Below are positions 5,309-6,588 of a stretch of 8,969 bases of DNA, piece by piece. The stretch is from a bacterium. GTDB taxonomy: Bacteria > BMS3Abin14. The stretch spans positions 1 to 8,969 of the forward strand of contig JARGFV010000100.1 of the NCBI GenBank assembly GCA_029210545.1. Reading direction: 5' to 3'. The notes below the pieces were generated by a model, which ran no database searches, was not told the DNA's origin, and was given only the letters and a program-made list of their open reading frames with translations. The translations under genes were made by a program, and so were the position numbers. Each line of letters begins with the position of its first letter. The first letter of the stretch is position 1.

Positions 5309-6228
<920 letters not shown>

Positions 6229-6244: not shown

Positions 6245-6245
6245 A

Positions 6246-6281
6246 ATATAATTCTGCCGGCTGACGCTGTCAGAATTATAT
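6246..6281. promoter_or_regulatory. Dyad in glyQ leader with embedded TATAAT
   Basis: Perfect 11-bp inverted repeat ATATAATTCTG (6246-6256) / CAGAATTATAT (6271-6281) with a 14-base spacer. A competing 5-bp hairpin, CTGAC (6261-6265) / GTCAG (6269-6273), overlaps the right arm. On the minus strand, towards glyQ, the right arm reads as a perfect -10 box TATAAT (6275-6280), but the -35 position is poor. It may be a promoter/operator, a leader hairpin controlling access to the ribosome site, or another member of the local hairpin cluster. Confidence 0.5.
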
Positions 6282-6373: not shown

Positions 6374-6453
6374 TCAAATTTGACAGGGTCGCAAAAAGTC
6401 CAATCCGGGACTTTTCGCTCAAAGGAAAGGGAAAAGCGTCGTTTTCCCTTTCC
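6374..6453 (+). repeat. 80-bp double-hairpin repeat, copy B
   Basis: Same unit as copy A but on the plus strand, opposite to the genes. Its first hairpin (6391-6418) has an A-C mismatch at 6393/6416, which would be a G-U pair on an RNA made from the minus strand. The second hairpin is perfect over 14 bp (6422-6435 / 6442-6455, loop GCGTCG). It matches copy C at 72 of 78 positions by hand count, and continues directly into four further palindromes. Confidence 0.9.
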
Positions 6454-6456
6454 TTA

Positions 6457-6553
6457 CAAATCAATGACTTACAGTGCGGGTCATTGATTTGGGCACCCCG
6501 CGCGGGGCGCGTTGATGACTTTTCGCGAAGTCATCAAATTTCGTTTTACGAAA
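6457..6553. repeat. Run of four palindromes extending copy B
   Basis: In order: CAAATCAATGAC (6457-6468) / GTCATTGATTTG (6480-6491), 12 bp with an 11-base loop; CCCCGCGCGGGG (6496-6507), a 12-bp palindrome with no loop; TTGATGACTT (6512-6521) / AAGTCATCAA (6528-6537), loop TTCGCG; and TTTCGT (6539-6544) / ACGAAA (6548-6553), loop TTT. All arms are perfect. The short open frames across this stretch are translated repeats and are not genes. Confidence 0.85.
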
Positions 6554-6557
6554 CTTG

Positions 6558-6588
6558 AATATAAACAGGGAAAGCGTTTGGATGTCAA
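6558..6588 (-). promoter_or_regulatory. Candidate sigma-70 promoter upstream of glyQ
   Basis: Minus-strand TTGACA (6583-6588, perfect -35) and TATATT (6558-6563, 5 of 6 to -10) separated by 19 bases, two longer than ideal. It points towards glyQ and, if used, would give a leader of about 320 bases spanning the whole hairpin cluster. It lies after recO and so could make glyQS independent of the mgtE-recO operon. Confidence 0.4.

Follow-up and report, generated by a model that had tools for sequence, protein, structure and literature searches.

A modular five-hairpin MITE in the recO-glyQ gap of a BMS3Abin14 bacterium, with a candidate IS1182-like transposase partner

The gap between recO and glyQ in the window, the whole 8,969-nucleotide stretch of a BMS3Abin14 bacterium analyzed here, very probably holds a copy of a non-autonomous, five-hairpin MITE that is probably mobilized in trans by an IS1182-like transposase and lies in the probable leader of glyQS (Table 1). 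The unit recurs with the same hairpin order and boundaries, its stems covary, it comes in size variants, and it shares its ends with an IS. It is short (154 bp here and 150-155 bp in most copies) and contains no transposase gene; terminal inverted repeats, a target duplication of ~6 bp, many copies and an unoccupied site in a relative complete the features of a MITE.

Table 1 Features of the window and the basis on which each was placed.
Feature	Position	Strand	Details
Second copy, cut by contig end	1-75	-	Pattern match
Left target-site duplication AAATTT	6376-6381		Copy-specific flank matching, 59 copies
Complete 154-bp MITE-like element; terminal inverted repeats enclose five hairpins	6382-6535	+	40 scored copies in the source genome; limits set by aligning copies
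Left terminal inverted repeat GACAGGGTCGCAAAAAGTCC	6382-6401	+	Start common to all copies
Palindrome 1 (hairpin 1), 6391-6401/6408-6418	6391-6418	+	Loop AATCCG; left terminal repeat as 5' arm
Palindrome 2 (hairpin 2), 6422-6435/6442-6455	6422-6455	+	14-bp stem, loop GCGTCG
Palindrome 3 (hairpin 3), 6457-6468/6480-6491	6457-6491	+	12-bp stem, hypervariable loop
Palindrome 4 (hairpin 4), 6493-6501/6502-6510	6493-6510	+	GC-rich, one mismatch in window copy
Palindrome 5 (hairpin 5), 6512-6521/6528-6537	6512-6537	+	Loop TTCGCG; right terminal repeat inside
Right terminal inverted repeat, minus-strand reading GATGACTTCGCGAAAAGTCA	6516-6535	-	Palindrome search and copy alignment
Palindrome 6, 6534-6544/6548-6558	6534-6558		Host hairpin at insertion site, outside element
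Right target-site duplication AAATTT	6536-6541		Copy-specific flank matching, 59 copies
Probable glyQS promoter, inferred	6558-6588	-	TTGACA 6588-6583, TATATT 6563-6558
Third copy, cut by contig end	8900-8969	+	Contig end inside copy

All six palindromes described in the initial annotation were found, spanning 6391-6558; the right limit of the array needed correction, having been set at 6553, within palindrome 6, rather than at its true end, 6558. The six-base loops reported there are those of palindromes 1, 2 and 5, and palindromes 5 and 6 overlap at 6534-6537. The stretch 6374-6560 folds at -80.8 kcal/mol on the plus strand and -83.2 kcal/mol on the minus strand, compared with means of -47.3 and -45.1 kcal/mol for dinucleotide shuffles of the two strands (z = -8.2 and -9.2), and none of 200 shuffles folded as well. 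The annotation had favored a composite stem-loop unit over a lone terminator or operator, and the copy alignment agrees, as other copies repeat five of the hairpins in unchanged order. Because these five recur in order, the objection foreseen there, that other copies would lack the downstream palindromes, does not hold; the sixth palindrome, expected to recur with the rest, belongs instead to the host target site. A mobile element, its ends or a target duplication had not been named.

In the 2.72-Mb source genome, a 28-base hairpin-1 pattern allowing up to two mismatches gave 188 matches, 97 forward and 91 reverse, and the reversed pattern, run as a control on the same genome, gave none. Forty scored copies of a 191-base query in this genome are 89-100% identical and contain the five hairpins in order. 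Copies start with GAYAGRGTCGCAAAAAGTCC and finish with GCGAAGTCATC or GCGAGTCCATC; the terminal inverted repeats set GAYAGRGTCGCAAAAAGTCC on the left against a right end of the GATGRACTCGCAAAAAGTCC type, and some copies (L028 and L198) have a right end that is a mirror of the left-end motif. The word GACTTTTCGC, present at 6409-6418 and at 6517-6526, had been read as a possible sign of shared ancestry, a view borne out in that the pair mirrors the terminal inverted repeats of the element.

In 41 of 59 copies, the six bases to the left and to the right of the element agree at 5 or 6 positions; shuffling of the flank partners gives an expectation of 13.4 copies and a maximum of 22 in 2000 shuffles. 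Position-wise match rates of the flanks set the location of the duplication, and an 8-bp model was dropped for one of 6 bp because the right flank begins with TC in 59 of 59 copies. Left flanks fit AANNTT in 31 of the 59. In the window, the direct repeat to the left of the element extends to TCAAATTT at 6374-6381.

Most copy matches end at query position about 168-173 (6537-6542), before the bulk of palindrome 6, which therefore lies outside the repeated unit. The recO-glyQ gap of G003, a relative from a different genus whose unoccupied site is similar rather than identical in sequence, reads TTCAAGTTTTTCACGAAACTTGAATATAAACAGGG; since the hairpin is present there and the element absent, palindrome 6 is a host hairpin. 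By this comparison, the element entered the left arm of palindrome 6 and duplicated part of that arm. In genome G004, a separate element starts elsewhere within the same gap. Both contig ends of the window fall inside further copies, and numerous further contigs of this genome start no more than about 75 bases from a copy. Such contig ends are likely the result of the assembly breaking at the repeat, and the element probably accounts for part of the genome's assembly breaks.

Copy length varies from about 23 bp to 564 bp as two modules, each a pair of hairpins (1+2 and 3+4), are gained or lost. The 564-bp copy (L044) contains an 82-bp unit with the hairpin 1+2 pair 4.3 times and a 35-bp unit with the hairpin 3+4 pair 2.6 times, an arrangement of internal modules in tandem with a fixed module at each end, and L050 contains two 81-bp units. 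A size of ~45 bp also occurs at the small end of the range. Four remnants of about 20-23 bp (L205, L209, L212 and L213) comprise barely one end motif and are still flanked by matching duplications, and in L198 and L203 the interior is inverted compared with most copies.

Of the 11 other genomes in the family, ten have the element; it was not found in G001, a complete genome of the same family, or in 49 genomes outside the family. In a wider scan with one genome per species and one pattern variant, hairpin 1 appeared, among the matches listed (100 stretches), in genomes of uncultured relatives and of Desulfurivibrio sp. AMeS2, with a single match in Mariprofundus; given the single pattern variant and the 100 listed stretches, the true spread may be wider. 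Copies in Desulfurivibrio, which belongs to another phylum, have the whole five-hairpin architecture, and 8 of 8 agree at 5 or 6 of the 6 flank bases. The Mariprofundus erugo match (L106:7118-7147) is a lone hairpin-1-like sequence with no other parts of the element and was set aside. No plasmid was found to carry the element of the source genome or of Desulfurivibrio.

Pairing within the stems was counted in 78 distinct full-length copies on the basis of the named structure (an automatic consensus fold pairs the left end differently), and 94.2% of cells pair; a single pair accounts for 26 of the unpaired cells. Two-sided changes occur at 19 of 46 pairs, in 132 cells (counts that ignore relatedness), whereas shuffles give 38.4 such cells and slid controls no more than 20. 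Within the source genome, stem variation (0.034) is lower than loop variation (0.153). Mismatch intermediates comprise 41 G-U and 74 A-C cells; because G-U is not favored over A-C, selection specific to an RNA strand is not indicated. As judged with a simple ORF caller, neither the placement of copies (29 codirectional, 11 divergent and 7 convergent gaps) nor their orientation relative to the genes (11 same, 18 opposite) has a clear bias. One terminator-like match on the plus strand of the window, at 6512-6537, faces against recO and glyQ, and Rfam at its gathering threshold gives no match in the window.

The stems may be kept by selection on DNA-level pairing or by intrastrand correction of palindromes. 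A speculative extension, to which we give limited credence, is that selection acts on the hairpin array in the form of folded DNA, single-stranded or cruciform, which might be part of the transposition substrate or a chromosomal structure used by the host. If true, selection on the DNA fold would explain two-sided stem changes across genera and in another phylum, without RNA-strand bias and despite module turnover. With stems that covary in a mobile element, it becomes testable whether palindromes in MITEs are kept by folded-DNA selection, by an RNA function or by intrastrand correction.

A candidate partner adjoins one copy in the source genome: a 520-aa gene (L292) with DUF772 and DDE_Tnp_1 domains. 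The best match of its protein is IS1182, at 116 bits against a curated family cut-off of 270, and we therefore call it IS1182-like. The L292 IS is bounded by a left end, GACGGCATCGCAAAAAGT, and a right end, GCGGGTCCATC, that match the ends of the element; the two flanks of this IS copy differ (AATATT versus AAGGTT). Homologous left ends in G009 (GACGGACTCGCAAAAAGT) and G007 (GATGGCTTCGCAAAAAGT) have the flanks AATAAT and AAGGTT, with conservation beginning at the same boundary, and the G009 left end matches the right end of the element (GATGGACTCGCAAAAAGT) at 17 of 18 bases. Relatives that are ~40% identical and come from unrelated genomes have ends GACGGGGCGGCAAAAAG with duplications AAAGCT and AAATCTA, or ends GATTCCGGCGCAAAAA with the duplication AATGTTT. 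The shared end motif and boundary thus tie the ends of the element to this IS clade.

On these sequence grounds, mobilization in trans by the IS1182-like transposase is probable. This DDE transposase would recognize ends of the form GAYRGRSTCGCAAAAAGTC and insert the element into targets resembling AANNTT, with a duplication of ~6 bp. Against this role stand the rarity of the intact gene among carriers, the differing flanks of the L292 IS, the score below the family cut-off and a search for ends of the closest outside relative, L306, that found none. No relatives of the transposase were found in IMG/VR. Two IS1182 genes near G003 copies (L268 and L293) were rejected as partners, not being bounded by the ends of the element. 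A strict-motif search of 1.06 Mb of loci for an autonomous element, sought as two ends separated by 15-4000 bp and bearing matching flanks, returned none.

Both recO and glyQ are on the minus strand, with glyQ at 6228. A minus-strand TTGACAT...TGTTTAT block upstream of glyQ is similar in six genomes, and this promoter-like block backs the position in the glyQS leader that the initial annotation had proposed. A consensus scan did not flag the probable promoter because the best spacing is 19. With the block at 6588-6558, the expected start of transcription is near 6551, and the transcript would pass through the element on its way to glyQ. The window copy thus probably lies in the glyQS 5' leader; insertion into the host hairpin of the recO-glyQ gap would have placed it downstream of the probable promoter, so that glyQS mRNA should carry the element in its 5' leader. 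It provides an example of insertion just downstream of a probable glycyl-tRNA synthetase promoter. A separate 16-bp inverted repeat (ATATAATTCTGCCGGC / GCTGTCAGAATTATAT, 6245-6281) lies outside the element, just upstream of glyQ, and G003 has a similar sequence at that place.

Could a different DDE transposase, absent from the present assemblies, move a MITE of the same anatomy? Only one copy of the intact transposase gene was found, and in several carrier genomes, including G003, G006 and Desulfurivibrio, no intact IS1182-like gene was found, a rarity among carriers that this explanation would accommodate. However, the end motif, the boundary and the A/T-rich duplications of 6-7 bp fit the IS1182-like clade in unrelated genomes, and a search of the source genome for an IS256-type transposase (PF00872) as a partner found none; we consider a different DDE transposase rather unlikely. 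Spread as a REP/REPIN-type family by a RAYT (Y1 tyrosine) transposase would be in line with the palindromic, intergenic nature of the copies and with a REP-associated tyrosine transposase gene (L282:1429-2118) located ~770 bp from a source-genome copy with matching end motifs. It is nevertheless extremely improbable, as terminal inverted repeats and target duplications are unexpected for Y1 elements; moreover, G001 has Y1 genes and no elements, whereas G006 and G007 have many elements and no Y1 match.

The strong folding, together with the probable location between promoter and glyQ, would also suit an array that is chiefly a host RNA feature in the glyQS leader, such as an attenuator, a terminator or a riboswitch-like structure, rather than an inserted element. 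Yet dozens of unrelated sites have the five-hairpin unit, the array is absent at glyQ in G001, G002, G003 and G007, and the missing orientation bias, Rfam match and G-U excess noted above point the same way, leaving such a feature very unlikely.

A MITE with an IS1182-like partner has precedents: MITEs, and IS1182-partnered MITEs, are already known. The modular family appears to be new, a limited literature search having found no published description of the BMS3Abin14 element family. A little-studied uncultured bacterial lineage thereby gains a MITE family that is abundant, modular and linked to a candidate transposase partner. REP/REPIN repeats, which are associated with RAYTs, are abundant intergenic palindromes. 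The present element shares that character and differs from them in its terminal inverted repeats, target duplications and greater length, and in a distribution independent of Y1 genes. Closer in partner are the Methanosarcina MITEs attributed to an IS1182-family element (160-169 bp, terminal inverted repeats of 25-26 bp, 7-14 copies; PMC3852290), which are likewise non-autonomous, with terminal inverted repeats, an IS1182-family partner and a similar size; about 190 matches here contrast with their 7-14 copies, and the passages considered here make no mention of a hairpin array or module duplication. The Chunjie MITE of Geobacter uraniireducens (178-235 bp at full length, 38 full-length copies; PMC10969869) is similar in being intergenic and of variable size, with conserved ends, direct repeats and insertions near housekeeping operons, but apparently has other ends, a distinction drawn from its description rather than from its sequence. 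By architecture, the nearest analogues are the BOX elements of Streptococcus pneumoniae, which are composite, with fixed end modules and variable tandem internal modules, and measure 67-637 bp (PMC3049150). Both have fixed ends, variable tandem modules, strong stem-loops, intergenic locations and many copies, here over about 23-564 bp. The BMS3Abin14 element apparently differs from BOX in sequence, and it differs in host and module make-up, with hairpins 1+2 and 3+4 as its repeated modules, in having ends that are themselves hairpins, and in having an identified candidate transposase partner.
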